From the NCBI RefSeq assembly GCF_003957295.1, contig NZ_RQPJ01000005.1, positions 306,282-370,281 on the forward strand: DNA of 64,000 bases. Reading direction: 5' to 3'. Shown here piece after piece: positions 44,525 through 63,047 of this stretch. The notes below the pieces were generated by a model that did not search any database, was not told the DNA's origin, and saw only the letters and a list, made by a program, of their open reading frames with translations. The position numbers and the translations under genes were made by a program. Origin of the DNA: Arenibacter aquaticus. GTDB lineage: Bacteria; Bacteroidota; Bacteroidia; Flavobacteriales; Flavobacteriaceae. Each line of letters opens with the position of its first letter. Position 1 is the stretch's first letter.

Positions 44525-44527
44525 AAT

Positions 44528-45580
44528 TTAATTTTTCAAAGCTTGGTTCAGTTCCCTCAAGGGTATTTCTGCAAAATAAATAGACGTTTTTTCGGTTTCA
44601 TGGGAAGAATAGTAGCTCATGTACAGGGTATCATTTTCAAAGACAAAGCCGGGATAGCTACTATCAGAATTGGAAGGTAATTTTAGTACCTCTTTAAAAT
44701 TACCATTTTTATTAAAAGAAAGCAGTCCGGTATACTCCCTGTTTATTCTTCCCCCGCCAATATATTGCTCCTTTCCTACCGACACAAAATCTGGCCCTCC
44801 TATAAAATATGGCGATTCGGTAAAGGTCCATTTGGTATAGGGAGGATAACTGTGCCCTAAGTACGCTCTTTTATTCCCATTTTCCCGTCTTATGAGCATA
44901 ATTGCCTCACCCTTGTCATTGAACCTAATGGTAGATTCATTGGGGTTGCCCTCAATTTCCAAATTGCTAAGCAGTGAATAATCCACCCCGTTAGTAGTCT
45001 TCACCAATTTAATAGTAGTCTTATTTTTACCATCACCAATTTCCTCCCTGGAATAGAGTCCGCCATAACCAGCCCCTTGAAACCATGTTAAACTCCAAAG
45101 CCAATCAAACTTACCCTTTAACCCTTTCTCCAAATTAATGGGCTGGGGATTGGAAAATTTTGTTCCTTCTTCATTTGAAAATGCTATATGGGGTATTCCC
45201 CCCAACAAGGTCTTGCCCTCATAAATAGACCCTCCCATAGTGGCCATTATAAGCCCATTGGGCGTAACCGACAATTTGGGGTCCCTTAGATCGAATCCGT
45301 TGAGGACAATTTGATCCACTTCTTTCCAGACCTTACCATCTTTGGAAGCTATTATTTTTATAATTCCATCCTTACCATGTACATGCTTTTCCCCAGCGCG
45401 GAAGGCACAGTAAAATTTACCCTTAAACTTAATAAGGGAAGTAAATGCATTATAATTTTCATCAGAATAGATTTTGGACACCTTAATATCCTTGGCGGTA
45501 GACTGGGCGGTTGCATTGGTATAAAGCAGCATCAAAAAAAATAGCTGACATAAAGCACCCACAATTTTGTGTTTTCTCAT
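44528..45580 (-). CDS. Second sialidase-superfamily protein, secreted
   Basis: A 350-residue protein with a signal peptide ending near NATAQS. It also looks like a BNR-type beta propeller, but with fewer clear Asp boxes (SKDGKVW, SNEEGTKF). Features such as KFYCAFRAGEKHVHGKDG and NPNESTIRFND fit the exo-alpha-sialidase-like family that includes many enzymes of Bacteroidota glycan loci. The first gene of the sialidase-sialidase-sulfatase set, which reads as a mini-locus for an acidic or sulfated glycan. The precise activity is unknown. Confidence 0.75.
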   Translation of the reverse strand: MRKHKIVGALCQLFFLMLLYTNATAQSTAKDIKVSKIYSDENYNAFTSLIKFKGKFYCAFRAGEKHVHGKDGIIKIIASKDGKVWKEVDQIVLNGFDLRDPKLSVTPNGLIMATMGGSIYEGKTLLGGIPHIAFSNEEGTKFSNPQPINLEKGLKGKFDWLWSLTWFQGAGYGGLYSREEIGDGKNKTTIKLVKTTNGVDYSLLSNLEIEGNPNESTIRFNDKGEAIMLIRRENGNKRAYLGHSYPPYTKWTFTESPYFIGGPDFVSVGKEQYIGGGRINREYTGLLSFNKNGNFKEVLKLPSNSDSSYPGFVFENDTLYMSYYSSHETEKTSIYFAEIPLRELNQALKN

Positions 45581-46788: not shown

Positions 46789-47754
46789 TTATTCAGCTTT
46801 TTGCCAAGCCTGTTGAACAAAGGCCAAGTCCTTTTTCATTTGCTTAAAGACCTCTTTTTTATCAATTGTAATAGTAGATGCCCCGTGCTCCGCGCCTCCT
46901 AAACCGTATTCTAAATGAAGGGATACGGGCACATTGATCTTATATTTCTTAAGCAAGGAAAAGTAGCGGTCAAAATCTACCATCCCTTCTCCCAAGGGGG
47001 TATTCACTGGCTTCCATTTTCCTTTCACGATTCCCCACTTAAAATCTTTGATAACTATAGATTTTATGAACGGTTGTATCAACCGCAGTCCAAGTTCCCA
47101 GCTGCTTCCACCTTCCACAACAGCATGCCTTATATCATATTGGCACCCCATATGCACATTTTTGGTAGCCTTGAGAATTGGGGGCAAATCCCAAATAGGA
47201 GCCCCTACATGATTGCCTGCATGATTTTGATAACACCCTATTAGTCCAAGCTCCTTATTAAACTCCTCCAAATTATTGAACTGTTGACCGTATATATTCT
47301 GACTCTGGGAGATTTCCCTATCTTCGGGATAGGTTAACCAGCCAGTACGATAGTGAGTAATCCCCAGCTTGCTTGCCGTTTCCAAAACCGTCCTATGCTC
47401 CTTGTTTTCAACGTCTACAACGTTGGTGGTCATCATCCTAGGAGTTAGACCATATTTTTTCATAGCCATAACGGCCTTGGGCAAATCCTCATCCACCTGG
47501 CTTGGTAACACATGCCCCTTAGGCCTAACCGTTAAATCCAGACCATTAAACCCCATTTCGGCGGCCACCTCGGACATGTCATTATAATTCAGGAACTGCA
47601 GGTGTTTGGAAAATAAATGCACCTCTAAGTTTCCAGGTGTATTGGAAAAGGAATTTAAGTTGTATTGTTCAAATCCCATCAGCGGAAAGGCTAGGCCTGC
47701 CATTGCTGAAAGCTTAACAAAATCTCTTCTAGAAAAATTTACAGTATTATTCAT
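46789..47754 (-). CDS. Sugar phosphate isomerase/epimerase-like TIM barrel, Tat-type signal
   Basis: A 321-residue xylose isomerase-like TIM barrel protein. It begins with a twin-arginine-type signal (SRRDFVKLSAMAGLAFPLMG), so it is predicted to be exported folded, probably to the periplasm, perhaps with a bound metal. Conserved segments are FNGLDLTVRPKGHVLP and the HLEYGL near the C-terminus; metal ligands are in YQNHAGNH and IRHAVVEGG. Substrate unknown. It precedes the RraA-like gene by 26 bp, and diverges from the PL6 lyase gene across 138 bp containing the shared operator. Confidence 0.75.
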   Translation of the reverse strand: MNNTVNFSRRDFVKLSAMAGLAFPLMGFEQYNLNSFSNTPGNLEVHLFSKHLQFLNYNDMSEVAAEMGFNGLDLTVRPKGHVLPSQVDEDLPKAVMAMKKYGLTPRMMTTNVVDVENKEHRTVLETASKLGITHYRTGWLTYPEDREISQSQNIYGQQFNNLEEFNKELGLIGCYQNHAGNHVGAPIWDLPPILKATKNVHMGCQYDIRHAVVEGGSSWELGLRLIQPFIKSIVIKDFKWGIVKGKWKPVNTPLGEGMVDFDRYFSLLKKYKINVPVSLHLEYGLGGAEHGASTITIDKKEVFKQMKKDLAFVQQAWQKAE

Positions 47755-47802: not shown

Positions 47803-47854
47803 TTTGTTAGTCTTACAAATATACGTATTTTTGGTCAACCAATCTGGTTAACCA
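47803..47854 (+). promoter_or_regulatory. PL6 promoter with two 13-bp-spaced operator copies
   Basis: TTTG (47803-47806), 19 bp and TATTTTTG (47826-47833) form a full promoter. It overlaps two TGGT-N2-ACCA elements at 47832-47841 and 47845-47854, 13 bp apart start to start. A minus-strand TATATTTG (47816-47823) could serve the divergent TIM-barrel gene from the same region. Thirty bases (47825-47854) are identical to 51445-51474. Confidence 0.8.
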
Positions 47855-47892
47855 GTTTGTAATTATAAGTGGCCCTAAAAAATCTATTAATT

Positions 47893-50202
47893 ATGAGGAG
47901 AAAAGTAACGCTACTGTACTTTTTATTTGTTCTAAGCGCTTGTACGGACAAGACCAATCAGAATACCAAAATGGTTAACACACCTGAAGAATTGGAAACA
48001 GCTATAAAAAAGGCACAGGCCGGAGACAATATTGTTATGGCCAACGGTATATGGAAAGATCTTCAAATTAAATTTATAGGTGAAGGAACGGAAGACAATC
48101 CAATAGTTATTAAAGCTGAAACCCCTGGAAAAGTCATTATAGAAGGAGTGTCCGATTTAAAATTAGGGGGAAAGTATTTAGTGGTCAAGGGTCTACACTT
48201 TAGAAATGGCTATTCGCCGAGTGATGCCGTATTGGAATTTAGAATTGACGAAAAAACAATAGGAAATCACTGTACCGTTACCAATTGCGTAATTGAAGAT
48301 TTTAATAAAATGCAACGTGATGATACAGATCTTTGGGTTCAATTCTGGGGAAGACATAATACGCTTAGTAACAGTTACATTGCCGGAAAAACCAATCGCG
48401 GACCAACTATTAGAGTTGACTTAGAGGGCAATGAGAGCATAAATAATCACCATCAAATAATTAAGAACCATTTTGGACCAAGACCTCCCAAAGGTGGTGC
48501 TAGTGCGGAGACCATTCAAATTGGCAATAGTTATACTTCAATGTCTCCCAGTTATACCAAGGTTGCCAATAATTTGTTTGAAGCCTGCAATGGAGAAGTT
48601 GAAATTATTTCCAGTAAAGCAAACTTCAACGAGTTCAGAAATAATGTCTTCTATAAAAGCGAAGGTTCTTTGGTAACAAGACACGGAAATTATTGCACTA
48701 TAGATGGCAATTACTTTATTGGAGATGGTAAAAACGAAAATATAGGAGGTATCAGAATTATCAATACTGGACATTGGGTAACCAACAATTATTTCTACAA
48801 TATAAAAGGAAAAAATTTTAGAAGTGCATTGGCCGTAATGAACGGAATTCCAAAATCGCCCCTCAACAGATACAATCAGGTTACAGATGTAGTGGTAGCA
48901 TACAATACCTACATAAATTGCGATTCCCCTTTTCAATTTGGGGTTGGTCAAAATTTAAATCAGCAAGATGTTTTGCCACCCTCCGAAATTCGCTCTGCAC
49001 GACCTATAAGGACCATTATTGCAAACAATGTAATTTACAATGAAAAAGGTGATGCGTCACCAATTGTGGAACACGATAAGGCGGATGGTGTGAGCTTTAA
49101 AAGTAATGCCATCAACAATCAAGGTTTGGATTTTAAAGCTAATGACGGATTGGAGGCTATAAATTTTGATATCAAGGAAATTGAAGAATATATATATATC
49201 CCTTCGTCCAAGTTGGATATTGAACCTTATCAAGGGTTCGAATTTGAAAATATATCTACAGATTTAGTTGGAAATCCCAGAGCACACAACAATTCCATTG
49301 GAGCCTTCACTTATACCGATTTTAAAGACCCGAATATAATGGATAGATCCCAATACGGTCCAAGTTGGTATATGGCCGAAACAGCAGTTCAAGAGCCTAA
49401 AACGGAAATTGTTGAGAAGGCAGAAAACCTTCAAACAAAAATAGATGAAGCGGAAAATGGGGATATCATTTCGCTGGAAGCAGGAAATTATGATATCCCC
49501 CATTCTTTGATAATAAATAAAAAGTTGACCATTCAGTCCTCTGATAAGTCCAAAGTTATCCTAAATTATTCAGGAGTAGAAAATTCACCCCTATTCCAAC
49601 TTCAACCTAAGGGTTTTTTAAATCTGAAAAATATCGACTTAAAAGGAAGTAATTCCCAATTTGCATTCGCCAGTTTAAAGAAAAATATGTATACACATTT
49701 CGGGTTAACAGTTTCGAATTGTGACATCAGTAATTTTAAATATGTCCTAAAGGTCTATAAAGAGTCCTTTGCAGAGCGTATTACTTTTGTAAATACTTCC
49801 ATATCCAATTGTGAAAATGGTTTGGAACTATCGGAAGAAACCAATGACAAAGGAGATTATAACACTGAATATCTAACAATAGACCATTGCAGGTTTCACA
49901 ATGTAAAAAGCAATGTGATAGATTACTATCGCGGGGGCTATGACGAATCTACCATTGGCGGCAATCTATTGGTCACCAATAGCACCTTTACCAATTGTGG
50001 ATCAGAAAAAAGAAATGGAATTTTGATCAACTCCCATGGCATTGTAAATGTTGATATTTCCAAAAACACTTTTAACAACAATCCGGTAAAACTAGTGGCC
50101 TTACTTTGGGGAGCAAAAAACAATACACACGGGAACAATGAATTTAACAATTCAGGAGAAATCAGGGTTGAAGAAAATTTAGAAATGAAATTAATGTATT
50201 AA
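47893..50202 (+). CDS. PL6 alginate lyase, lipoprotein
   Basis: About 769 residues. The signal ends in the lipobox LSACTDK, so it should be lipid-anchored. The N-terminal two thirds form a parallel beta-helix of polysaccharide lyase family 6. Catalytic Lys242 lies in ISSKAN and Arg263 in TRHGN, 21 residues apart as in chondroitinase B (Lys250/Arg271), and the calcium-binding Glu lies in GEVEIISS. The C-terminal third (about residues 500-769) is a second beta-helix like that of AlyGC-type PL6 enzymes. The frame is open to a GTG at 47869, but the ATG at 47893 starts the signal peptide. PL6 members act on alginate or chondroitin/dermatan; the other genes here decide for alginate. SDR follows on the same strand. 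Confidence 0.86.
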   Translation: MRRKVTLLYFLFVLSACTDKTNQNTKMVNTPEELETAIKKAQAGDNIVMANGIWKDLQIKFIGEGTEDNPIVIKAETPGKVIIEGVSDLKLGGKYLVVKGLHFRNGYSPSDAVLEFRIDEKTIGNHCTVTNCVIEDFNKMQRDDTDLWVQFWGRHNTLSNSYIAGKTNRGPTIRVDLEGNESINNHHQIIKNHFGPRPPKGGASAETIQIGNSYTSMSPSYTKVANNLFEACNGEVEIISSKANFNEFRNNVFYKSEGSLVTRHGNYCTIDGNYFIGDGKNENIGGIRIINTGHWVTNNYFYNIKGKNFRSALAVMNGIPKSPLNRYNQVTDVVVAYNTYINCDSPFQFGVGQNLNQQDVLPPSEIRSARPIRTIIANNVIYNEKGDASPIVEHDKADGVSFKSNAINNQGLDFKANDGLEAINFDIKEIEEYIYIPSSKLDIEPYQGFEFENISTDLVGNPRAHNNSIGAFTYTDFKDPNIMDRSQYGPSWYMAETAVQEPKTEIVEKAENLQTKIDEAENGDIISLEAGNYDIPHSLIINKKLTIQSSDKSKVILNYSGVENSPLFQLQPKGFLNLKNIDLKGSNSQFAFASLKKNMYTHFGLTVSNCDISNFKYVLKVYKESFAERITFVNTSISNCENGLELSEETNDKGDYNTEYLTIDHCRFHNVKSNVIDYYRGGYDESTIGGNLLVTNSTFTNCGSEKRNGILINSHGIVNVDISKNTFNNNPVKLVALLWGAKNNTHGNNEFNNSGEIRVEENLEMKLMY

Positions 50203-50303
50203 ATCCATCTCTCCCGTCCCTAAACCGACCTACATGGACTACGTCCAATGATTACAATAAAAAAGAACTAAGCAAAATTGAAAACCTATATTTCAGAGAA
50301 AAA

Positions 50304-51074
50304 ATGAAAAACAAGAATAAATTAGCTGGCAAAAATGTTCTCGTAACTGCTGGTGCCCAAGGAATTGGAGAATCAATCACAAGACACTTTATTGATAATG
50401 GAGCTAATGTAGCCATCCATTATTTTTCCAGTGCAGATACCGCCAACCAATTGGTTGAATACTCAACCAGCAAAGGACAAAAAGCGGTTGCCATAGCTGG
50501 TGACCTAACAAACGAAGCCGATGCAAATGCAATGGTCGAAAAAACAATAGAAGCATTTGGTGGACTAGATATACTTATTAATAACGCAGGTTCACTTGTT
50601 GCACGTAAAATGCTTGGCGAAATTAAGGCCGAGTTCTGGCACAAGGTAATGGATATAAACCTTACATCCATGATGTTTGTAACACGGGCCGCTGCTCCAT
50701 ACCTAGCTAAAAATGACAACAGTAGCATTGTTAATTTGGCATCTCTAGCAGGACGTAAAGGCGGTCACCCCGGGTCATTGGCTTACTCTACCAGCAAAGG
50801 TGCGATTCTAACACTAACACGAGCGCTTTCGTCAGAATTAGGGCCTCAAGGCATACGTGTAAACGCCGTTGCCCCAGGGCTTATCCTGGGCACCTCATTT
50901 CACAACACCCATACAACTAAAGAATCAGCAGCTGCAACAACAGCAGGCATTCCAATCCAACGAGCTGGTAATGCATCTGATGTAGCACGAGCTGTTTTGT
51001 ATCTGGCGTCAGAATACGATGGCTTTATTACTGGGGCAACACTAGACATTAATGGGGGTGTTTACAATATGTAG
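50304..51074 (+). CDS. SDR reductase, probable DEH reductase
   Basis: A 256-residue classical short-chain dehydrogenase: cofactor-binding TAGAQGIGE, NNAG, and the catalytic Ser plus YSTSK (Tyr and Lys). C-terminal SDR features include GFITGATLDINGG. In alginate breakdown an SDR reduces 4-deoxy-L-erythro-5-hexoseulose uronate (DEH) to 2-keto-3-deoxygluconate (KDG) using NAD(P)H. It lies 101 bp after the PL6 lyase in the same direction. It is related to the decayed SDR near 54.2-54.8 kb (the shared segment is AG-[SN]-LVARK). Confidence 0.78.
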   Translation: MKNKNKLAGKNVLVTAGAQGIGESITRHFIDNGANVAIHYFSSADTANQLVEYSTSKGQKAVAIAGDLTNEADANAMVEKTIEAFGGLDILINNAGSLVARKMLGEIKAEFWHKVMDINLTSMMFVTRAAAPYLAKNDNSSIVNLASLAGRKGGHPGSLAYSTSKGAILTLTRALSSELGPQGIRVNAVAPGLILGTSFHNTHTTKESAAATTAGIPIQRAGNASDVARAVLYLASEYDGFITGATLDINGGVYNM

Positions 51075-51422
51075 TTTCTTGTTGAAACATAAATAAATGA
51101 TTGTTTTAAAATTACTGGATGAAACTTCGTGGATCGGAATAAAACGATGGTCTTTCTACGACAAAACGAGGGATCTTGCCACCACTTTAATTACTCTAAT
51201 AGGTGACCAGCTCCCCTTATCTAATTAAATACTAAGGTGGGTATCGTAAAAATGGTAAAAGAAAAAGGAATCTTAGACGAAATGACCTTATTTATAAATT
51301 CATTTTTTAAGTACCCCAACACCTCCTTCGTTTTACGCCAAAATACACATTTGCCAAATTATCAATTCACCCCCTTACCAATTATTAATTATAAATAAAA
51401 TGGAAGTAATTATTGTTAAATA
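51075..51422. other. Leader region before the PL7 operon
   Basis: The region from the SDR stop to the PL7 promoter has a 43-residue open frame at 51097-51228 (ATG start) without similarity I can recognise. No repeat or RNA gene is visible. The promoter of the PL7 gene begins at 51423. Confidence 0.4.
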
Positions 51423-51474
51423 TTTGGCAGTTCCACAAATTTGTGTATTTTTGGTCAACCAATCTGGTTAACCA
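51423..51474 (+). promoter_or_regulatory. PL7 promoter with two 13-bp-spaced operator copies
   Basis: TTTG (51423-51426), 19 bp, TATTTTTG (51446-51453). Operator elements are at 51452-51461 and 51465-51474. The 30-base block 51445-51474 is identical to the one before the PL6 gene. The ATG is about 165 bp downstream, so the leader is fairly long. Confidence 0.82.
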
Positions 51475-51640
51475 ATTTTATAAATTCAATTTCGATATGT
51501 TTTTTCGCGGCTTTCGTTATCGCATAAATACGGCTAAAACCATCTAGTAGAAGGTTTTGTTTAGATTGTAGAAGAAATTATCATAACCGATAAAAGCATT
51601 GACTTTATACGATTTTTATTGTAAACATAACCCACATAAT

Positions 51641-53695
51641 ATGAACTCTAAAGTATTCCATTCGGTTTCTGTACGGCATTTATTCATGATAGGTACCATC
51701 TTGCTATTTTTTAGCTGTAAGGAAAACAAAAAACAAAAATCTACGGACAACACTAAAAATGTAGCGATAGGTCCTTCTGCAAACGACATCATACCATTTT
51801 TCCAACATTGGAATTTGATCTTAGGTGATGGTTCCAATGTAGGCAAGGCTATGGACTATGAGAACAAAGATTTCTTTTATACAGCGAGTGATGATGGTGG
51901 GGATTGGGTAGTATTTAAAGCTCCAAATGCAGGAAATACCCATGGTACTTCGAATAATACGAGAACCGAATTGGCCCAATTAAAGAAGTGGTCACCAATG
52001 ACCGAAGCTAAAATGAAAGCCACCCTAAAGATAATGAACGTTTCATCAACGGGCGATGCCCGTGTTGCTTCCACCTATTCCGTAGTAGTTGGTCAGATAC
52101 ACAGTGCAGATGGGCACGAGAACGAACCGCTTAAAATATTTTACAAAAAATTTCCTGGCCATAAAAACGGCTCTGTCTTTTGGCATTATGAAATAAATAC
52201 CGCAGGTGATGATAATTCAAAAAGATGGGATTACTCCACTCCCGTATGGGGACATGATTTTTCTGTTGTTGGTACTGATGCAAATACCTATCCCCCAGAA
52301 CCAGTAGATGGAATTGCTTTAGGTGAAGAGTTTAGTTACGAAGTGGTTATTAAGGACGGTATTATGTATCTTACATTTACTAGTGACGGCCATGAGACCA
52401 AAAAATTTACTAAAAATCTTATTTCCTCTGAATATGCGAATCGTTCAGACATGCCAGAGCAAACCAAAAAATTATTTGTACCCATTGGTCAGGATGGCCT
52501 TGAGCGTAAAGAAGGATATGCCGGTGAGGGCCTCTTTTTTAAATTGGGCACGTACAACCAAACCAACGGAAAAGACCCTAAGGTCAATAAAGTCTGGTGT
52601 TCTGGTGCCGAAACCCATGGCGGTGATATACAAAAGCAATATGCCGATGGCAATTACGCCGAGGTGTGGTTTAAATCGGCAGATATCACCATCAGCGATG
52701 ATGCCATTTCCAATGCAGGTTATTTCCAAGCCAATGATGGCTTAAGTGCGAAAACTGTTTATCCACATGAAGTGATTCCCTTTATGGATAAATTTAAAAT
52801 ATTGTTGGGTGACGGAACCCATGTGGAAGATATCACGGAGTTTGAACACAAAGATTTCTTTTATACCGTGATTGACGGTACCAGGCGTTGGGTAGTTTAC
52901 AAAACCCCAAATTCAGGTGTCACTTCAAAAAACTCAAGTAATACAAGAACCGAACTACATGAAAAAAGAGAATGGCTCCCTAAAGATGGTGGTAAACTAA
53001 CAGGCACCTGCAAGGTAATGCAGGTCTCCATTTCTGGGGATGCCAGGGTTGCTGCCTCCTATTCAACTGTTGTTGGGCAAATTCACAGTGGTGAAGGACA
53101 TGAAAATGAACCACTAAAAATATTCTACAAAAAATTTCCTGGTCACACAAAAGGTTCCGTATTTTGGAATTATGAAATCAATCCAGAAGGGGACGACAAT
53201 TCTGACAGGTGGGAATATTCCTATGCTGTTTGGGGACACGATATGTCTGTCATTGGAAAAACCAAAAACGACTATCCCACTGAGCCTACCAATGGAATTG
53301 AACTTGGTGAAGAATTCAGCTATGAGGTAAATGTTTACAAGGGAATAATGTATCTGACCTTTAGAAGTCCAGATCACGAAACTAAAACATTTACCAAAAA
53401 TCTAATCTCATCTGAATATGTAGAAAGATCGGACTTTCCTGCGCAGATGAAGAAATTATTTGTCCCCATAGGGCAAGATGGGACTGAACGTGCCAACGCT
53501 TATAGTGGAGAGTTGAATTATTTTAAACAGGGGGCGTACAACCAGACAAATGGAAAAAGTCCGGAAACCAATATGGTTTGGTTTGCAGGTGCAGAAACCT
53601 ATGGAGGTGATATCGCCAAACAATATGAAAATGGCTGTTATACTGAAGTATGGTTTAGGGAAGCAACAGTAGGTATGGGTACTCCACCCGAGTAA
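51641..53695 (+). CDS. Tandem-domain PL7 alginate lyase, lipoprotein
   Basis: About 684 residues with a lipobox (LLFFSCKEN). Two PL7 (alginate lyase 2) domains lie in tandem, about residues 46-350 and 373-680. Each carries the three family blocks: RTEL with the catalytic Arg, VVGQIHS with Gln and His, and a final F-K-x-G-x-YNQT with the catalytic Tyr. The two halves share long stretches such as PLKIFYKKFPGH and EFSYEV, so they arose by internal duplication. Such enzymes cut alginate by beta-elimination at the surface. The in-frame TTG at 51599 is rejected; ATG 51641 begins the signal peptide. KdgF follows 71 bp later. Confidence 0.88.
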   Translation: MNSKVFHSVSVRHLFMIGTILLFFSCKENKKQKSTDNTKNVAIGPSANDIIPFFQHWNLILGDGSNVGKAMDYENKDFFYTASDDGGDWVVFKAPNAGNTHGTSNNTRTELAQLKKWSPMTEAKMKATLKIMNVSSTGDARVASTYSVVVGQIHSADGHENEPLKIFYKKFPGHKNGSVFWHYEINTAGDDNSKRWDYSTPVWGHDFSVVGTDANTYPPEPVDGIALGEEFSYEVVIKDGIMYLTFTSDGHETKKFTKNLISSEYANRSDMPEQTKKLFVPIGQDGLERKEGYAGEGLFFKLGTYNQTNGKDPKVNKVWCSGAETHGGDIQKQYADGNYAEVWFKSADITISDDAISNAGYFQANDGLSAKTVYPHEVIPFMDKFKILLGDGTHVEDITEFEHKDFFYTVIDGTRRWVVYKTPNSGVTSKNSSNTRTELHEKREWLPKDGGKLTGTCKVMQVSISGDARVAASYSTVVGQIHSGEGHENEPLKIFYKKFPGHTKGSVFWNYEINPEGDDNSDRWEYSYAVWGHDMSVIGKTKNDYPTEPTNGIELGEEFSYEVNVYKGIMYLTFRSPDHETKTFTKNLISSEYVERSDFPAQMKKLFVPIGQDGTERANAYSGELNYFKQGAYNQTNGKSPETNMVWFAGAETYGGDIAKQYENGCYTEVWFREATVGMGTPPE

Positions 53696-53766
53696 ATTAA
53701 ATGGGTTCAGATTGAAGAGTTGACTCCTATTATTAAAGAGTAAATACATATTAAAATCATAAAAAA

Positions 53767-54141
53767 ATGAAACGATTTAGTGAAAAATACCTCATCTCAA
53801 AAGAAATGAAATGGGAAAAACTTGGAGGAGGAGTATCAAGACAGTTTTTGGGTTACGATAACCAAATCATGATGGTAAAGGTGAAATTTGAGAAAGGAGC
53901 ATTGGGTGCCCCTCATCAACATTTTCACACGCAAGCTACTTATTGCGCTTCAGGTAAATTTGAATTCGAAATTAACGGAGAAAAGAAAATTGTAGAAGCA
54001 GGAGATGGCGTTTATATTGAACCAAATCTATTGCATAGTGCCGTTTGTTTGGAAGAAGGGATACTAATTGACACATTTAGTCCCGTAAGAGAAGATTTCC
54101 TAAGCGGTGGAGAGGTATCCTATTTTGGAGATAAAGAGTAA
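53767..54141 (+). CDS. kdgF: KdgF-like cupin (unsaturated uronate to DEH)
   Basis: A 124-residue cupin. The metal-binding residues are in PHQHFHTQ and the later LLHSAV; GDGVYIEPN is the second cupin motif. KdgF helps convert 4,5-unsaturated monouronates from alginate or pectin into the linear keto sugar DEH, removing the need for slow spontaneous opening. It lies right after the tandem PL7 lyase and before the SDR remnant, in the alginate context. Cupins are a diverse family, so position supports the call more than sequence alone. Some of the family are about 110 residues; this one is slightly longer. Confidence 0.83.
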   Translation: MKRFSEKYLISKEMKWEKLGGGVSRQFLGYDNQIMMVKVKFEKGALGAPHQHFHTQATYCASGKFEFEINGEKKIVEAGDGVYIEPNLLHSAVCLEEGILIDTFSPVREDFLSGGEVSYFGDKE

Positions 54142-54193
54142 TAATAGGACAAGCGGCTCTTTATGGGAAGACTTTAATTCATAAACAACATAT

Positions 54194-54820
54194 ATGAATT
54201 AAATAGGATAAATAGCCATTGTTACTGGAGGAACCAGAGATATTGGAAAGGCCATTTCCATAATATTGGCCAAGGAAGGCGCACAGGTTGTAGTAAATTA
54301 TTGTAGCAACTATGGTGACACCAAAAATCTTCGGATAAACAAGGCCGGTAACTTGGTTGCCAGAAAGACGGTAGCCAAGATGGATGAAGCTTTTTTTGAT
54401 AAGTTGATATAATTAAATCTCAATTCTACTTTCCTTTTTACACAAGCGGCATTGCCACCAATGAAATCCGCACCCTCCGTCATAAACATTGCCCCCAGGC
54501 CGGCAGGGATGGCGGGGGCGTTGGATCCGTAGCCCAGGCAACACCACAAGGAACCATCATGACCATCACAGGCGGTCTGGAGAAAGCAGTTGGCCCAAAA
54601 AATATTCGGTAACATAGCCTTTGCCCTAAAATGATAGCCACCGCCTTTCAGGACATCTTCATCACAGATGAGATGGTAAAAAGTAACAGGTTTGACTCCT
54701 CTTCGCCAAGTAGGAAGAGTTAAAGAAATTGCCAATACACTAATCTGCCACGCTTCGTCCGAAACTTCATTCATTACAGGAGCCAACTTCTACATAAACG
54801 GCGGACTTGCTTTTTCGTAA
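54194..54820 (+). pseudogene. Decayed SDR reductase gene (former DEH reductase)
   Basis: Reading across frames gives clear pieces of a short-chain dehydrogenase: [72 protein letters not shown] and SFITGANFYINGGLAFS at the end. Stops follow the ATG within a few codons (MN*IG*) and occur again after LI, at DP and after KNIR; at least two frameshifts separate the pieces. About 40 codons between NY and NKAG are missing compared with the intact SDR at 50304. The gene is dead. It lies directly after kdgF, where alginate loci usually carry an SDR, and its loss is probably covered by the SDRs at 50304 and 62283. Confidence 0.85.
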
Positions 54821-54910
54821 ACATTAAGCTTAGCACTGTTAATTTAACAATGACCACGGAACCAATTTAGCAGATCTTTAAAAAAACCGAACAATACTTG
54901 TAAAAAAATT

Positions 54911-54974
54911 TTTGATTAACGAATAAATAATATATATTTGGTAAACCAAACTGGTAAACCACTTTGGTTTACCA
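54911..54974 (+). promoter_or_regulatory. susC promoter with three 13-bp-spaced operator copies
   Basis: TTTG (54911-54914), 18 bp, TATATTTG (54933-54940). Three TGGT-N2-ACCA elements follow at 54939-54948, 54952-54961 and 54965-54974, each 13 bp from the next. This is the densest operator in the window. Confidence 0.83.
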
Positions 54975-55035
54975 GACGAAATTAATAACACCAGCCATGT
55001 TAAAAGAAAAATATTTAAAAATAGACCATAGAATT

Positions 55036-55137
55036 TGACAAAAAAAGGACGGGCGCACACCCATCCTTTATAAAAAAGATTACTTCATTCTGAAGGGAAG
55101 TAATAACTCGGACATAAAATAATATACCATTTTACGC
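55036..55137 (-). ncRNA. Predicted antisense RNA in the susC leader
   Basis: A minus-strand -7 box (TATATTTG, 55144-55151) would start an RNA of about 100 nt that ends at the minus-strand terminator at 55040-55069, antisense to the susC leader. No good -33 box is seen. Antisense RNAs near susC genes are known in Bacteroides (DonS-type), but this one is only a prediction. Confidence 0.35.
55040..55069 (-). terminator. Minus-strand terminator inside the susC leader
   Basis: Ten-bp stem (55044-55053 with 55060-55069), 6-nt loop. On the minus strand the stem is fully paired, with one G-U pair, and is followed by TTTTTTT. On the plus strand the same position is a C-A mismatch and no T tract follows. 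It is therefore oriented for minus-strand transcripts, although no minus-strand gene is present. Confidence 0.65.
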
Positions 55138-55285
55138 CAAGTGCAAATATAATAAAAACATTGACTTTAAACCGATTGGGCGATTTGGTATATAGCGGGA
55201 AAAATGTGTATGCACAAGCACATTTACAAGCTGATTTCGATTATCGAAATTGGAAATTGATAATTCTAACTCAATACAAACAGCA

Positions 55286-58200
55286 ATGAATTTAAGAAAG
55301 AAACTCATTTTAGGAGCGTTATTGCTCATTAATGTCGCCTTGTTCGCCCAAGATGGTTATATACTGTCCGGAACGGTAACGGACGCTGCAAACGTTCCAG
55401 TACCCGGAGTTAATGTGATTATCGCCAATACAACTACAGGAACGGCAACAGACTTCGACGGAAATTACCAAATTACGGTAAAAAACGGGGATGTATTACA
55501 GTTTTCATCCTTGGGATTTGTAACCCAATCAATTACGATAGCAGGCCAAGAACAGCTAAATATAACCTTGGCCGAAGACTCCAGTCAACTAGATGAGGTA
55601 GTTGTAGTTGGTTATGGTACCAGAAAAAAATCACATCTTACTGGAGCGGTCGCAAAAGTAGGTGGAGATGAAGTTGCCGCTGTTCAAGTGGCTCGTGTAG
55701 ATGATGCCCTTGCAGGTAAGTTATCCGGGGTACGGATTCAAAATCAAAGTGGAGAACCCGGTGCGGATCCCAAAATCCAAATTAGGGCGGCATCATCTGT
55801 TTCAGGTGACTCTGGACCATTAATTGTAGTGGATGGATATCCAATTTCAGGTAATTTGGCAACGGTAAACCCCAACGATATTGAAAGTTTAGAGGTTTTA
55901 AAAGATGCGGCATCTGCTGCTATCTATGGTTCTTTGGGTGCCAATGGTGTTATTTTGGTTACCACCAAAAAAGGAAAAGCAGGAAAAGTTAATTTTAATT
56001 ATAATTCATATGCAAGTACTTCAAGTAAGTATATAAAGGACATAGAAATGCTGAAGACAGCAGGAGAATGGGCCAAAGAATTACAAACCGGTGCCTATGA
56101 TCTTTCCGAAACCGACCCAGGTTTATTGGCTTATAGACTAGATGCATACGCCAATGCCCCCGATGTCATTAGCGTAGAAGATTGGCTATTCAAAAATGGG
56201 AGTACCACCAATCATGATTTTAGTGTGAGCGGTGGATCAGAAAACTTAAAGGCCTTTGCTTCGCTTGGTTATTTGAATACCGATGGTATCGTAAAAGGAC
56301 AAGGTTATGAAAGGTATAACGGTCGTATGAATCTCGATGCCAACTTGAGTTCCAAATTAAAGGCCGGATTGAGTATGAATGGTTATTATGGCAAACAAGA
56401 TATTGTTCCTTGGGAAATGAGAGATCTATTGAGAGCATATAGCATTAGTCCTATATACCATACGCAAGCCTCAATAGATTTCGTTCAAGAATTGGATCGT
56501 AAGAGACAGGCATTAGCGGATACTGGTTTTACAGGAAATAATATCGGTAGATCTTTTGACCAAGATTATAGAGGTATAGGGTTAGATCCAACCAGTATAT
56601 ATGATTTGCAACCAGGCGATGTAGTTCACGATTGGCAATACGGCAGAAATCAAAATGGTATTGGAGGAACAGGGGATGCAGGTGTAGCCGCTAAGTTTGA
56701 CAATTCCAGAAGATGGAAAAAGACATATTTTGGAAACCTAAGTTCTTATTTGCAATATGAAATTCTAGATGGTCTAAATATAAAAACCGTTTTCGGAGCA
56801 GATTTGGAAGACACCCAGACTTACGTATATGAGGGAATATTGTCGGACGGCCGACAACGTTCCAATCAAACTGAGTTGGATATATCCAATATAAAAAAAT
56901 CTACTGTATTAAGTACAACCACTTTGAGTTTTGCAAAAATCATTGCTGAGAAGCATGACATCTCTGCCGTGGCTGGGATGGAATTTGTAAATACCTATTA
57001 TAAGGGAATTGTGAATAATGGATCGAACGTACCATATGGTCTACCTTTGAACTATGATTTTTTTGACCCTGCAGATGTAATTACCAACGAGATAGATGAA
57101 ACTCAGTCCAGAAATGGCTTTTTTGGAAGAATTGCTTATGCCTTTGATGATCGTTATCTTTTATCGGCATCAATAAGAAGAGATGGTGATTCACGATTTG
57201 GAGCAAATAAAAAATATGCAGTATTCCCTGCTCTATCTTTGGGATGGAATATTCACAATGAATCTTTTTTCGGAAATGCTGATGCGTTTAGCCTATTTAA
57301 ACTTAGGTTTAGCACCGGATCTTTAGGAACTGCCTCTTTCTTGGGTACATATAACTCATTAAGTATTTTGGGCACCTCCCCAACAGCTTTCGGGACAGGA
57401 TTTCTTATTCCTGAAGATATAGCCAACCCAGATTTAACCTGGCAGACCAATAAAGAAACCAACTACGGTGTTGATTTAGGTTTTGCTAGTAACCGAATTA
57501 GATTTAGTGTAGATTATTATACGTCCGATGTCCAAGATATGTTGATCAATCAAAGTGTATCTGAGGTTCTTGGGACCCCTGCTATAAAACTAAATCGCGG
57601 TGATGTTACCAGTTCTGGATTGGAATTTGAACTTAGTACAAAAATAGTTACCAATCCAAACTTCTCTTGGAGTGTCAACGCCAATTTATCAACTGCCAAT
57701 TCAGAAATTACCAATCTTGGTGATTTGGACGAGCTGCCCAGGCAAATTTACGGTGGACCCAGTGGTAGAGGCCCTGAATTTAGAAACTATGTAGGAGGTG
57801 AAATTGGTGAAATGTGGGGATATGAAGTAACTGGTGAGGTGGAAACAATACATATGTCAGATCCTTCCAGGGGCGTTGGATTTGGCAGCTCAGAGTGGTA
57901 TGTTGTTGATCAAAACGGTGATGGTGAAATTACCTATGAAGGTGATTACGTAAAGCTAGGGTCGGCCACACCGGATTTTTATTGGGGACTTTCAAGTTCT
58001 ATGAATTTCAAGGATTTTGATCTGTCGTTCCAATTCCAAGGCTCCCAAGGAGCAGAACTTTACAATATAGACCCAATTTACTGGAAATCACAATTTGGCG
58101 GTAGATTAAAGTCTAGTTTTGACGCGAATGATGATGGTATAGCTGATGCCAGTGGGAAGTTCTATCAAGAGACCAGAAATGCCCATGGCTCAGGAATTCA

Positions 58201-58468
58201 AGATGCTTCTTATACAGCCTTGAGAAACCTAACTTTAGGGTATACCCTTAATCCGGATTTAACCGATAAAATTGGCTTAAGTTCAATGAGGATTTATGTT
58301 GCAGCTACCAATTTGTTATATATAATGGCAGATGATTATACCTCATTTAACCCTGAAGGTGTAGAGATCGAAAATAGTGGTTATGCAGGTCCAACCACTT
58401 ACGGATACCAAGAAGGTGCGAGTCCGATTGTAAGAAGTTTTACTTTGGGTATAAATGTAAATTTTTAA
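55286..58468 (+). CDS. SusC/RagA-like TonB-dependent transporter
   Basis: About 1060 residues. A signal peptide (ending LFAQDG) is followed by a carboxypeptidase-regulatory-like domain (about residues 20-100), a TonB-box-like region (DEVVVVGYGTRKK), a plug domain and a 22-strand barrel ending in NVNF. It carries oligosaccharides across the outer membrane with its SusD partner, here most likely alginate oligomers made by the lyases. The frame extends upstream to 55250, but the ATG at 55286 starts the signal peptide. SusD follows 10 bp later. The long leader with an operator triplet and a putative antisense RNA suggests tight control. Confidence 0.92.
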   Translation: MNLRKKLILGALLLINVALFAQDGYILSGTVTDAANVPVPGVNVIIANTTTGTATDFDGNYQITVKNGDVLQFSSLGFVTQSITIAGQEQLNITLAEDSSQLDEVVVVGYGTRKKSHLTGAVAKVGGDEVAAVQVARVDDALAGKLSGVRIQNQSGEPGADPKIQIRAASSVSGDSGPLIVVDGYPISGNLATVNPNDIESLEVLKDAASAAIYGSLGANGVILVTTKKGKAGKVNFNYNSYASTSSKYIKDIEMLKTAGEWAKELQTGAYDLSETDPGLLAYRLDAYANAPDVISVEDWLFKNGSTTNHDFSVSGGSENLKAFASLGYLNTDGIVKGQGYERYNGRMNLDANLSSKLKAGLSMNGYYGKQDIVPWEMRDLLRAYSISPIYHTQASIDFVQELDRKRQALADTGFTGNNIGRSFDQDYRGIGLDPTSIYDLQPGDVVHDWQYGRNQNGIGGTGDAGVAAKFDNSRRWKKTYFGNLSSYLQYEILDGLNIKTVFGADLEDTQTYVYEGILSDGRQRSNQTELDISNIKKSTVLSTTTLSFAKIIAEKHDISAVAGMEFVNTYYKGIVNNGSNVPYGLPLNYDFFDPADVITNEIDETQSRNGFFGRIAYAFDDRYLLSASIRRDGDSRFGANKKYAVFPALSLGWNIHNESFFGNADAFSLFKLRFSTGSLGTASFLGTYNSLSILGTSPTAFGTGFLIPEDIANPDLTWQTNKETNYGVDLGFASNRIRFSVDYYTSDVQDMLINQSVSEVLGTPAIKLNRGDVTSSGLEFELSTKIVTNPNFSWSVNANLSTANSEITNLGDLDELPRQIYGGPSGRGPEFRNYVGGEIGEMWGYEVTGEVETIHMSDPSRGVGFGSSEWYVVDQNGDGEITYEGDYVKLGSATPDFYWGLSSSMNFKDFDLSFQFQGSQGAELYNIDPIYWKSQFGGRLKSSFDANDDGIADASGKFYQETRNAHGSGIQDASYTALRNLTLGYTLNPDLTDKIGLSSMRIYVAATNLLYIMADDYTSFNPEGVEIENSGYAGPTTYGYQEGASPIVRSFTLGINVNF

Positions 58469-58478
58469 TTCAGAAATC

Positions 58479-59813
58479 ATGAAAAATATGAAATCTATAT
58501 ATTTAGTAATAGTATCCCTGTTGTTGATAACATCATGTGATAACGATTTGGATCAAACGCCACCCTTATTACTTGAATCCAGTGGTTTGGAGGAATTTGG
58601 ACCCGTATTAAATGCAGCGTATTACTATCAGACCGGCGGTGCAACACCAATGGGTGTGATGGGCGACTTTAGGGCCGACAATATGCTGATGTTAGAAAGC
58701 CCATATACGGCTTTTGACACCTACAACGCAGATTTGGGAGGCTTGGATTTGGTTGAGCAATTTTTTAGACCCCTCTATAGCAATATGTACAAGGCCATCT
58801 TAAGTGCCAATAATGTAATTGATAATTCAACTGACGCCACTGAGATTGCTGAAGCCAAATTCTTAAGAGCATTGTCTTACTTTAAATTGGTGATGGTTTT
58901 TGGAGATGTCACAGTGAATTTATCTCCTTCCCCTAGCCCATCGGATTTGTCCATTTTAACAAGACAACCGGCTGCCGACGTGTACAATAACGTGATTATT
59001 CCGGACTTTCAAGCCGCAATAGCCGGTTTAGACAATTCTGGATTGGCCAGTGGACGCGCATCCAACATCGCTGCCCAGGCCTTTCTCGGCAAAGTATATC
59101 TACACAGAGGTAATTTTTCCGAAGCTGCCACAACGCTCGGAACTGTAGTTAACAGTGCTGCCGATGCAGGGATTAGTTTGGAAAGCGACTTTGCCAACGT
59201 TGTAGTAGACGGTAGTTCAGAAGTCATTTTTGCAACCCAATTATCAACTTCGGTTCCAAATGCATATGGATCCGCCACCACCTTCGTAGGATGGGTCAGC
59301 GGGGCCGATACAAAATCCCTTACCCCCCTAGACCCAAGCTTAATTGCCGCTTTTGATGCCAGTAGTGCTAGTGGTGGAGGTACGGATTTAAGAAAGGCAC
59401 TTACTATTGATACCGATAATATGAATGGTAGTAGGAAATATACTGGCGGACTTGAACAGGATTATATAGAATTAAGATTATCCGATGTTATTCTAATGTA
59501 CGCCGAAGCTCTGAATGAAACTGGCTCCGCTGCAGCCACTGTACTTCCGTTATTGGATCCTATAAGAACGAGAGCGGGTTTAAATAGTTTAAGTGGAACT
59601 ATAAGTTCGCAGGCCGACGTGAGACAAGCGATCTATGACGAAAGAAGATTGGAATTGGCCTTTGAAGGACACAGATGGTTTGATTTGGTAAGAACGGGTA
59701 CCGTTGATGCTGAAATGGGTGAAACGATTAATAATAATTATTATGTATTTCCAATACCGAACTCGGAAATACTTGCCAGTGATGGGGTAATAACCCAAAA
59801 TGATGGTTACTAA
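58479..59813 (+). CDS. SusD/RagB-like nutrient-binding lipoprotein
   Basis: A 444-residue lipoprotein (lipobox LLLITSCDN). Typical SusD features are seen: the N-terminal LNAAYYYQT and DNxM segment, the TPR-like EAKFLRALSYFKLVMVFGDV block near 130, the RxSDVILMYAEALNE motif near 330 and the DERRLELAFEGHRWFDLVRTG motif near 390. It caps the SusC channel and captures glycan at the surface. The PL7 and PL6 lyases and the operator suggest the ligand is alginate. It lies 10 bp after susC and is closed by a terminator. Confidence 0.92.
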   Translation: MKNMKSIYLVIVSLLLITSCDNDLDQTPPLLLESSGLEEFGPVLNAAYYYQTGGATPMGVMGDFRADNMLMLESPYTAFDTYNADLGGLDLVEQFFRPLYSNMYKAILSANNVIDNSTDATEIAEAKFLRALSYFKLVMVFGDVTVNLSPSPSPSDLSILTRQPAADVYNNVIIPDFQAAIAGLDNSGLASGRASNIAAQAFLGKVYLHRGNFSEAATTLGTVVNSAADAGISLESDFANVVVDGSSEVIFATQLSTSVPNAYGSATTFVGWVSGADTKSLTPLDPSLIAAFDASSASGGGTDLRKALTIDTDNMNGSRKYTGGLEQDYIELRLSDVILMYAEALNETGSAAATVLPLLDPIRTRAGLNSLSGTISSQADVRQAIYDERRLELAFEGHRWFDLVRTGTVDAEMGETINNNYYVFPIPNSEILASDGVITQNDGY

Positions 59814-59867
59814 AATTTAGAGAAGGTTATAAATACTAGTAAGTAGAGTTAGTTAATAATTGGAGTT

Positions 59868-59897
59868 TACCGGCCTAAGGTCTGGCCGGTAATTTTC
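59868..59897 (+). terminator. susCD terminator
   Basis: A perfect 8-bp stem (59868-59875 with 59884-59891) and 8-nt loop are followed by ATTTTCTT. It is 55 bp after the susD stop. Confidence 0.85.
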
Positions 59898-59971
59898 TTA
59901 AAACTGGATGGATAAGACTTATATTTTAAAATCCTAGATTATTAATATTTCTTTCGGCTATTGTTTTTATG

Positions 59972-60000
59972 TAGTTTTGACAAACCAATTTGGTAAACCA
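59972..60000 (+). promoter_or_regulatory. gntR promoter with two operator copies (one degenerate)
   Basis: -7 box TAGTTTTG (59972-59979). Operator elements: degenerate TGACAAACCA at 59978-59987 and perfect TGGTAAACCA at 59991-60000, 13 bp apart. No clear -33 TTG. It ends 19 bp before the regulator ATG, pointing to autoregulation. Confidence 0.75.
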
Positions 60001-60019: not shown

Positions 60020-60727
60020 ATGACAACAGAAATTCTCCCAAAAAACGAAAACGACTCTATTCAGAAAGAGATTATATCCAAGATCAGGGATTATATTAAT
60101 TTTAAAAACCTTGAGCCAGGAGACAAATTACCCTCGGAAAGAAAGCTTTCCGAAAAATTTGAGGTAAGCAGGGGCAATGTAAGGGAAGCTATACAAACCT
60201 TGGAGTCCTACGGACTATTATACTCCAAGCCCCAAAGTGGCACCTTCATTGCCGACATTGGCCCCGTAGCCATGAACGGAATGATCAATGACATTTTGCG
60301 CCTGGAGGAACCCGATTTTAAGACCCTGGTAGAGACAAGGATACTTTTGGAATTAAAGACAGTGAGGCTGGCAGCTTTAAGAAGAACCGAGGAGGATCTT
60401 AAAGAAATAGAGGAGGCCCTAGAGGCCTATGCCGAAAAGGTAATGAAAGGGGAAGATGCTGTTCAGGAAGATCTATTGTTCCACCTAGCTATAGCAAAAG
60501 CAGCTGGTAATAGTACCATTAACACCTTTATGTTAACCATCACCCCGGAGATCATAACCAATTTTGCCAAATACCATGTATGTGACAAGAATGTAGCTTT
60601 TACCGGAATACAAGAACATAGGGATGTTTATGAAGCAATAAAGAAAAAAGACCCCCAATTGGCCAAGGAAAAAATGAAAATACACTTTAAATTGTTATAT
60701 CAATACTGCTATAACATTAATGATTAA
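60020..60727 (+). CDS. FadR-subfamily GntR regulator of the alginate locus
   Basis: A 235-residue regulator. The N-terminal winged helix-turn-helix carries the GntR signature (LPSERKLSEKFEVSRGNVREAIQTLE), and residues about 95-230 form the helical FCD effector domain with metal/ligand residues in DLLFHLAIAKA (Asp and His), EHRDV and MKIHF. FadR-type regulators of hexuronate genes (UxuR, ExuR) bind TTGGT-N2-ACCAA sites, and this is the form of the elements before its own gene and three other promoters of the locus. The effector is probably a uronate intermediate such as KDG or DEH. Repressor action, released by the effector, is the expected mode. Confidence 0.85.
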   Translation: MTTEILPKNENDSIQKEIISKIRDYINFKNLEPGDKLPSERKLSEKFEVSRGNVREAIQTLESYGLLYSKPQSGTFIADIGPVAMNGMINDILRLEEPDFKTLVETRILLELKTVRLAALRRTEEDLKEIEEALEAYAEKVMKGEDAVQEDLLFHLAIAKAAGNSTINTFMLTITPEIITNFAKYHVCDKNVAFTGIQEHRDVYEAIKKKDPQLAKEKMKIHFKLLYQYCYNIND

Positions 60728-60968: not shown

Positions 60969-62252
60969 ATGAAAGTCAAAGGTTTAAGATGGTGGATAAT
61001 AGGGCTGATCTTTATAGCAACTGTTATCAATTATATAGATAGGAGTGCTTTGTCTATTATGTGGGGCAATGAAAATGTAGAAGGCTCCATATCGCATTCA
61101 TTGGGTCTAACCAAGGATCACTACAGCTATATCCTAAACATTTTTATGGTCGCATATGCGCTGGGACAATTATTCTCGGGTAAATTGTTCGATAAGGTGG
61201 GTACTAGAATTGGATACGTGATAAGTATAGGTATTTGGAGTTTATCTACCGTCATGCACGCCACTGTTAGAGGTTTTTTGTCATTAGCATTTTTTAGAAC
61301 CACCTTGGGTTTATCCGAAGCCGGTAACTGGCCAGGAGCTGTAAAAAGTAATGCGGAATGGTTTCCAATAAAGGAGCGCGCCATTGCCCAGGGACTTTTT
61401 AATGCAGGCGCTTCCATTGGCTCGGTCATTGCCCCACTCTTAATTGCCCTTCTTTTTGTAGCCTATGGCTGGGAGGTAACCTTTATAATAGTTGGGGGCT
61501 TAGGGCTTTTATGGATTATCCCTTGGCTTATAATTAATAAAACAGGTCCCAAAAAGCACCCGTGGATTAAGGAAGAAGAGCAAAATTTTATTTTGGAAGG
61601 ACAAAGTAAGGCAGATCAAAATGCTACGGAAGACCAGAAAGGCCTAAGCCTAAAAGAAATACTTTCCTATAAAGAGTCCTGGTCCATTGTAGCAAGTAGA
61701 TTTTTCTTGGAGCCCATTTGGTGGTTATTTGTTGGCTGGATGCCCATATATCTTTTTGATGTATATGGTTTTAATGTAAAAGAGGTAGGTATGTTTGCTT
61801 GGGTCCCGTATGTAGGTGCGGCTATTGGGAGCATTGCAGGAGGCTATGTGTCCGGTGTTATCATTGCAAAAACAAATTCGATAAACAAGGGGAGGAAAAC
61901 CACAATTTTCATAGGAGGTCTCATTATGGTCTTAGGCCTTATCTCAACTATATTATTTGCGGACACCCCGGAAAAATTTGTTGCAATTGTATTTATAGTG
62001 TTGTTCGGTTTTCAGTTTGCAATAGGAAATATCCAAACACTTCCTAGCGACCTATTTAGTGGCAAGTCTGTTGGATCATTGGCCGGCTTAGGGGGTATGG
62101 TAGGCGTGTTTTCTGTAATTATCATGAACTTCTTGGTTCCTGTAATTGCAAAAGTTTCCTACACACCAATTTTTATAGCCATTGCCATATTTGTGCCATT
62201 GGGAGTTGGGTCTATATACTATTTCGCAAAAAATATTAAGTCAGTAGAATAA
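60969..62252 (+). CDS. MFS transporter, ExuT-like (hexuronate/DEH uptake)
   Basis: A 427-residue transporter with about 12 membrane segments, of the anion:cation symporter family that includes ExuT and related hexuronate permeases. The NYIDRSALS in the first helix and the RTTLGLSEAGNWPGAVKSNAEWFP segment near residue 115 are family marks. The central loop (about 200-240) is charged. In alginate loci this transporter takes up DEH or related uronates over the inner membrane. It begins 240 bp after the regulator; no operator element is seen in that gap. It is followed 30 bp later by an SDR gene. Confidence 0.87.
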   Translation: MKVKGLRWWIIGLIFIATVINYIDRSALSIMWGNENVEGSISHSLGLTKDHYSYILNIFMVAYALGQLFSGKLFDKVGTRIGYVISIGIWSLSTVMHATVRGFLSLAFFRTTLGLSEAGNWPGAVKSNAEWFPIKERAIAQGLFNAGASIGSVIAPLLIALLFVAYGWEVTFIIVGGLGLLWIIPWLIINKTGPKKHPWIKEEEQNFILEGQSKADQNATEDQKGLSLKEILSYKESWSIVASRFFLEPIWWLFVGWMPIYLFDVYGFNVKEVGMFAWVPYVGAAIGSIAGGYVSGVIIAKTNSINKGRKTTIFIGGLIMVLGLISTILFADTPEKFVAIVFIVLFGFQFAIGNIQTLPSDLFSGKSVGSLAGLGGMVGVFSVIIMNFLVPVIAKVSYTPIFIAIAIFVPLGVGSIYYFAKNIKSVE

Positions 62253-62282: not shown

Positions 62283-63047
62283 ATGAGTAATTCAAACGGT
62301 AAAGTAGCAATAATAACCGGAGCTACCGGAGGTATAGGTTTTGAAGTAGCAAAAAGATTGGGTAAAGACGGGTATACAGTAGTATTAAATGGTATTGATA
62401 ACGAAGCAGGAGTTAAAAGGATAAAAGAGCTTACCGCAGATGGGATCAATGCCGAATATTATGGATTTGACGTGACAAAAGAAGAAGAAGTCACTAAAAA
62501 CATCACCGCTATAGGGGAAAAGTATGGAAAAATTGATGTTCTTGTCAATAATGCCGGTGGATTGGGCGGAAGGTCCAGGTTTGAAGAAATGACAACGGAC
62601 TTTTACCGCTTTGTGATGGCATTAAACCTTGATTCTGTTTTTTTCGCATCAAGAGCCGCTATTCCTTTTCTAAAAAAAGGGGAGCTTCCTACTATTATTA
62701 ATTATACTTCAATTGCGGGTTGGAATGCCGGAGGTCCCGGAGCAGGGATCTATGGCACCTCCAAAGCAGGGGTGCATGCCATTACCAGGGCACTGGCAAA
62801 AGATCTTGCCGAATATGGGATTAGGGTAAACGCCGTATCTCCTGGTACCATTGACACACCTTTCCACGCCCAGATAAAATCGACAAAACCAGAAGTATTT
62901 GCTTCATGGAAAAACAACATTTTATTGGGCAGGTTGGGACAACCGGAGGAAGTTGCCTCTGTTATTTCGTTCCTAGCAGGTAAAGATGCGGCTTTCCTTA
63001 CTGCCGAAACCATCCAAATTGGAGGCGGACAAGGTTTGGGAATATAA
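62283..63047 (+). CDS. SDR reductase, probable DEH reductase (second copy)
   Basis: A 254-residue classical SDR: TGATGGIGF cofactor loop, NNAGG, the catalytic Ser in INYTSIAG with Tyr and Lys in YGTSK, and the C-terminal TAETIQIGGGQG. It probably reduces DEH to KDG, as the adjacent ExuT-like transporter suggests. It differs clearly from the SDR at 50304. Two SDRs could have different cofactor preference (NADH versus NADPH) or different substrates. Co-transcribed with the MFS gene. Confidence 0.8.
   Translation: MSNSNGKVAIITGATGGIGFEVAKRLGKDGYTVVLNGIDNEAGVKRIKELTADGINAEYYGFDVTKEEEVTKNITAIGEKYGKIDVLVNNAGGLGGRSRFEEMTTDFYRFVMALNLDSVFFASRAAIPFLKKGELPTIINYTSIAGWNAGGPGAGIYGTSKAGVHAITRALAKDLAEYGIRVNAVSPGTIDTPFHAQIKSTKPEVFASWKNNILLGRLGQPEEVASVISFLAGKDAAFLTAETIQIGGGQGLGI

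Follow-up and report, generated by a model that had tools for sequence, protein, structure and literature searches.

Tandem TGGT-N2-ACCA arrays at alginate-locus promoters of Arenibacter: probable operators of an AusR-type GntR repressor

Which protein recognizes the short palindromes that are repeated over the promoters of a likely alginate locus in Arenibacter aquaticus? We analysed a window of 64 kb (the whole stretch of DNA, 64,000 nucleotides), in which the element TGGT-N2-ACCA occurs in eight perfect copies and one degenerate copy, in a 13-bp register, at four promoters of this locus, namely those of a PL6-type lyase gene, a PL7 alginate lyase gene, a susC gene and a gntR gene. Our comparison of sequences indicated that these arrays are very probably the operators of an AusR-type GntR/FadR repressor encoded at 60020-60727. 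An earlier note on this DNA had reported nine such elements with 13-bp phasing at the four promoters, and all nine coordinates were right. The perfect copies, TGGTNNACCA, start at 47832, 47845, 51452, 51465, 54939, 54952, 54965 and 59991, and the degenerate one, TGACAAACCA, at 59978; consecutive starts within the arrays differ by exactly 13 bp. The putative operator arrays are:

47832..47854, plus strand: two-copy operator array of the PL6 promoter (47832-47841 and 47845-47854)
51452..51474, plus strand: two-copy operator array of the PL7 promoter (51452-51461 and 51465-51474)
54939..54974, plus strand: three-copy operator array of the susC promoter (starts 54939, 54952 and 54965)
59978..60000, plus strand: operator array at gntR, a decayed TGACAAACCA at 59978-59987 followed by a perfect TGGTAAACCA at 59991-60000

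The window held 10 perfect elements in total, while 1.20 were expected from dinucleotide shuffles, and a count of 10 was reached in 0 of 100 shuffles. The two further elements, at 3885 and 25416, stand alone.

The arrays are placed with respect to TAnnTTTG, the -7 promoter element of Bacteroidota, as follows:

47826..47833, plus strand: -7 box TATTTTTG of the PL6 promoter, with the TTG of the -33 element at 47804 and a spacing of 19
51446..51453, plus strand: -7 box TATTTTTG of the PL7 promoter, with TTG at 51424 and a spacing of 19
54933..54940, plus strand: -7 box TATATTTG of the susC promoter, with TTG at 54912 and a spacing of 18
59972..59979, plus strand: -7 box TAGTTTTG of the gntR promoter

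The layout is TTG-N19-TAnnTTTG at the PL6 and PL7 promoters and TTG-N18-TAnnTTTG at susC, and no TTG was found 17-21 bp upstream of the TAGTTTTG box of the gntR promoter. In each array of the window, copy 1 opens on the final TG of the box and the later copies follow in 13-bp steps downstream, so that the arrays run over the presumed transcription start. The claim of the earlier note that all elements overlap the -7 box holds for copy 1 of each array but not for copies 2 and 3, which lie downstream of the box.

A scan of the 5.23-Mb Arenibacter genome for 13-bp tandems, as the earlier note had proposed, revealed none at unrelated promoters. The exact pair occurred four times, always within the alginate locus (the triple counting as two pairs), and the reversed pattern at 13 bp was not found in this genome. 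When up to two mismatches were allowed, 8 pairs were matched genome-wide versus 3 for the reversed pattern. A genome-wide uronate regulon with paired sites is unsupported, since the exact pairs lie only in the alginate locus. Single operators outside the locus were also considered. Outside the locus, TANNTTTGGTNNACCA has only two exact matches (C16:46148 and C16:91100). Both lie inside open reading frames, on the strand of the frame in one case and against it in the other, with no second copy 13 bp on in the sequence inspected, and they were taken as chance. The search for single sites with one mismatch gave 60 matches versus 59 controls and cannot detect single operators, so that single sites may exist elsewhere in the genome. 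As a separate observation, TTGGTNNACCAA alone was matched 26 times in the whole genome (G000) versus 4 times for its reversed-pattern controls, exceeding what the alginate arrays account for; within coding DNA, however, reversal of the pattern may not give a good control.

The presence of the arrays was then compared with that of the regulator in an even draw of 149 Flavobacteriaceae genomes (regulator cut-off E<=1e-40). The exact 13-bp pair was present in 35 of the 37 genomes with the regulator versus 0 of the 112 without it, the sets being compared by eye (Fisher p 4.6e-32, kinship among genomes ignored). The reversed pattern was absent from every genome listed. The two regulator-bearing genomes without an exact pair, G019 and G132, have box-anchored arrays in which one or two of the copies deviate by a single mismatch. 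An AlyA5-type PL7 (E<=1e-100) was absent from 12 of the 37 regulator genomes, and 11 of these 12 have the exact pair, again as compared by eye; array presence tracks the regulator more closely than it tracks this lyase. In a class-wide sample of 198 genomes (regulator cut-off E<=1e-60), two have the regulator, namely the window's genome and G240, and these two are also the ones with the exact pair. G240 belongs to another family; its regulator is 56% identical, and its pair lies about 300 bp past the 3′ end of the regulator gene. The proposal of the earlier note that the gene at 60020 is the natural candidate for binding these sites is strongly supported by this co-occurrence. On another contig, titled Saprospiraceae (locus L120), the regulator is 73% identical and the exact operator pair lacks a TAnnTT box; horizontal transfer or a binning error could explain its presence there.

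Spacing and promoter offset were analysed in named loci, 80 in number and 1.59 Mb in total length. In 86 cases an exact site was followed by the next one within 60 bp, with 76 at 13 bp, 9 at 26 bp and 1 at 45 bp. With one mismatch allowed per site, there were 163 pairs at 13 bp and 58 at 26 bp, and no other spacing between 8 and 40 bp had more than 3. In 57 of the 65 exact arrays, the TAnnTTTG box begins 6 bp before copy 1, so that its final TG is also the start of copy 1; the box is found on one strand and in no case on both. Box-anchored arrays are present in 78 of the 80 loci, the exceptions being L120 and L144, and a TTG lies 27-29 bp before copy 1 in 67 of 132 such arrays (9, 44 and 14 cases). 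These box-anchored counts presuppose a TAnnTT box and are no proof of the offset, while the spacing count (86 cases) and the count of 65 arrays were made without requiring a box.

The regulator is encoded among alginate lyases and a SusCD pair. It contains PF00392 (GntR winged helix-turn-helix, N-terminal, the match starting at residue 15) and PF07729 (FCD, C-terminal), both over the cut-offs. Its closest named relatives are those of nine Arenibacter loci, with 86-90% identity. In an alignment of 81 sequences (that of the window and 80 relatives), residues D151, H155, H200 and H222 were at least 97% identical; they may be the metal/ligand-site Asp and His residues of the FCD domain. AusR of Zobellia galactanivorans DsijT was reportedly described by Dudek et al. 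in 2020 (doi 10.1093/nar/gkaa533). According to citing papers, it is a GntR repressor of the alginate system of Z. galactanivorans that binds single, double or triple operator copies, and its binding to promoters is inhibited by metabolic intermediates (PMC7874173). It is likewise presented as the repressor of this system in PMC8286568 and PMC8073546, the former calling it the first identified regulator of alginate catabolism.

One of the genomes compared, G152, is inferred to be that of Z. galactanivorans from a 100% match to the AlyA5 query (sequence of PDB 4be3). Its regulator is 67.5% identical to that of the window over 231 amino acids, and homologues of the MFS and SDR genes adjoin it. 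Identity and context suggest that the two regulators are orthologous. G152 contains five exact 13-bp pairs, and exact pairs were found in all nine genomes searched of its genus. Two of the five precede PL6-type matches (60.7% and 34.0% identity to the PL6 of the window), and the remaining two, for which no gene was assigned, are divided between the two halves of the larger locus. The susC array of G152 has three copies, the third with one mismatch. The arrays of the window (two copies at PL6 and at PL7, three at susC, a decayed and a perfect one at gntR) are of the kinds found in G152, and they agree with the operators in one, two or three copies that are reported for AusR; the Arenibacter locus differs from that of Zobellia in genus and in gene order. 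The earlier note knew of no such arrangement for alginate regulators of Bacteroidota, which needs correction: the sites fit the operators of the published AusR. The system itself is thus not new, and the arrays of the window are most likely docking sites of an AusR-type repressor, a known kind of protein that silences alginate-degradation genes as long as alginate is absent.

The operator and the regulator also fit the FadR subfamily. UxuR has a GntR plus FCD architecture. In PMC4494728, a GT-N2-AC core is listed for UxuR and is shared by the window element, which also fits the TKGT/ACMA palindrome consensus quoted there for the subfamily. ExuR is listed in the same paper with 3 nucleotides, so the earlier note's statement that both UxuR and ExuR use N2 sites is correct for UxuR only. 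This known core, together with the GntR and FCD domains of the regulator, was counted in favour of reading the sites as probable AusR operators. The word "tandem" occurs 0 times in that paper and 13-bp tandem arrays were not seen in it, which sets the window apart from the UxuR-type regulators described there; in its table, going by the presumed order of the columns, Bacteroidetes apparently contribute 0 members of the FadR subfamily. The window regulator also has PDB matches to chains of NanR (6on4, E 3e-12). In E. coli, three NanR dimers bind cooperatively to three tightly spaced repeats, (GGTATA)3; the sugar effector weakens the binding, and the cooperativity requires a 32-residue N-terminal extension (PMC8012715). 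The window resembles this system in having a GntR-type repressor and closely spaced repeats, with simultaneous binding of several dimers only suggested here by the spacing. Unlike NanR, the window regulator is without the 32-residue extension, its GntR domain beginning at residue 15, and its unit is a full palindrome rather than a GGTATA repeat.

In the mechanism that we propose, AusR dimers would bind each TGGT-N2-ACCA and occlude the -7 element and the start region, denying RNA polymerase access to the promoters of the lyases, susC and gntR. Products of alginate breakdown would release AusR from its operators. With a step of 13 bp, neighbouring dimers would be about 1.24 helical turns from each other, roughly 86 degrees around B-DNA, and having two or three of them would strengthen repression, most of all at susC. 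The decayed copy 1 at gntR would make autoregulation leaky, so that some repressor would always be made.

Copy number does differ among the promoters. A copy was counted with at most 2 mismatches, provided that the array included a perfect copy or had no more than 2 mismatches overall, and each array was labelled by its best downstream tblastn match. At least three copies were found in 55 of 75 susC-labelled arrays versus 10 of 57 others (Fisher p 1.1e-10, nominal, as the loci are related). Ten MFS-labelled arrays, about 50 bp upstream of the regulator gene, are actually regulator promoters, and the GntR-labelled arrays of L124 (9632) and L142 (9268), which precede that gene by 369 and 733 bp, may serve some other gene; the susC comparison is unaffected by this relabelling. 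Enough upstream sequence was available in 78 of the 80 loci to examine the regulator promoter, and 42 of them have a box-anchored pair with at least one perfect copy within 300 bp. In all 42, copy 2 is perfect and the left half-site of copy 1 has at least one mismatch, while its right half-site is perfect in 32 and lost in 10. Under one rule for all promoters (a box, at least one perfect copy and at most 4 mismatches per pair), all 34 regulator promoters have a broken left half in copy 1, versus 15 of 104 others (nominal Fisher p 6.9e-21, the loci being related). The regulator promoter of G152 shows the same decay, TAACAAACCA followed by TGGTTAACCA. The decayed copy 1 may weaken autoregulation.

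Several observations weigh against the AusR reading of the arrays. Adjacent sites may be too close for two dimers to bind simultaneously. The co-occurrence counts ignore phylogeny, and several of the named loci are close relatives. In the reversed sequences, for which six spacings were reported, no pair was 13 bp apart but 11 were 26 bp apart, and the 26-bp count by itself is therefore weak evidence. No box is present at the usual offset in 8 of the 65 exact arrays, L144 has neither an exact pair nor a box-anchored array, and L120 has its exact pair without the box. In 36 of the 78 loci, there is no box-anchored array within 300 bp upstream of the regulator gene. Autoregulation, which the earlier note had claimed and which the cross-genome comparison strongly supports, is therefore not universal. 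As for other explanations, a different regulator (a GntR paralogue or a generic hexuronate regulator) might bind the arrays, with this GntR merely nearby. A first look at the genome gave 14 loosely GntR-like candidates, and GT-N2-AC cores are common to several FadR-type regulators (PMC4494728). However, genomes without arrays also show such candidates, the arrays follow this orthologue (35/37 versus 0/112, and the same 2/198), and the regulator is 67.5% identical to the presumed AusR of G152, AusR being the one reported as first identified for alginate catabolism (PMC8286568). We consider binding by another regulator very improbable.

A different question is how many proteins occupy an array. 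TGGT-N2-ACCA-N3-TGGT-N2-ACCA might be a composite operator bound by one tetramer, or by one dimer in alternative registers, with copy number tuning avidity. FadR-type operators cover about 17 bp, and footprints of that length on neighbouring sites would overlap; moreover, copy 1 keeps only its ACCA half at 32 of the 42 scored regulator promoters, leaving three half-sites. Yet whole palindromes repeat at 13 bp at most promoters, and three NanR dimers assemble side by side on the tight (GGTATA)3 operator (PMC8012715), and we regard the composite operator as rather unlikely. It concerns stoichiometry and is compatible with AusR as the binder. Chance, or local duplication of promoter DNA with no regulatory meaning, has a negligible probability. 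Over 30 bp, a stretch that contains the -7 box and both operators, the PL6 promoter is identical to that of PL7, and this suggests that one promoter was copied. But exact pairs occur in 35 of 149 genomes with 0 reversed-pattern matches in each of those listed, and the spacing and the -7 offset are constant across many genera, which rules this out as a full explanation.

With the arrays read as probable AusR operators, the published AusR model would hold beyond Zobellia, in Arenibacter and, as the genome comparison suggests, in many further genera of the family. The signature (TAnnTT, then TGGT-N2-ACCA every 13 bp) is searchable and would flag likely AusR-controlled promoters, so that alginate regulons might be read from sequence. 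It also offers a testable rule for how the number of operator copies would determine the strength of repression in polysaccharide loci of Bacteroidota. More tentatively, and with somewhat less than even confidence, we suggest a fixed geometric code in Flavobacteriaceae. Operators would be laid in 13-bp steps from the -7 TG, mostly with three copies at the transporter, two at the lyases, and a broken left half followed by an intact copy 2 at the regulator. Copy number and decay would set a hierarchy (susC tight, gntR leaky), and the dimers would interlock about 86 degrees apart without a NanR-type extension. A statement of the 13-bp spacing or of the -7 offset was not found in the literature searched, the primary AusR paper excluded, and the fixed geometry, the three-copy bias of susC and the half-broken operator of the regulator may go beyond what is in print.

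The genes of the locus are given below.

47893..50202, plus strand: PL6-type lyase, Pfam Chondroitinas_B (ATG 47893 picked by eye, listed open reading frame 47869-50202)
50304..51074, plus strand: SDR-family oxidoreductase
51641..53695, plus strand: PL7 alginate lyase with two catalytic stretches (ATG 51641 picked by eye, listed open reading frame 51599-53695)
53767..54141, plus strand: small cupin protein, presumably KdgF-like
55289..58468, plus strand: SusC-type TonB-dependent transporter (ATG picked by eye, listed open reading frame 55250-58468)
58479..59813, plus strand: SusD-type protein
60020..60727, plus strand: GntR/FadR-type regulator with FCD domain, candidate AusR orthologue
60969..62252, plus strand: MFS transporter, possibly co-transcribed with gntR
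62283..63047, plus strand: SDR oxidoreductase, presumably the DEH reductase, with 83% identity to the homologue of G152, the presumed Z. galactanivorans genome

The PL7 lyase carries its two catalytic stretches in a single open frame, and both match the 4be3 chain (C16:358063 and C16:359035). Such a one-frame double PL7 was also found in G026, G073, G096, G102, G104 and G130, and other genomes compared have separate genes instead. Upstream of the PL6 gene, CAAATATA at 47816-47823 (plus strand) reads on the minus strand as a -7-like TATATTTG box, oriented towards the divergent gene 46789-47754. This minus-strand box has the PL6 operator array immediately upstream of it, and an effect of the array on the divergent gene might also be possible. 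Beside the alginate locus, at 43346-45580, two neighbouring minus-strand genes resemble, by eye, sialidase/BNR-repeat secreted proteins.

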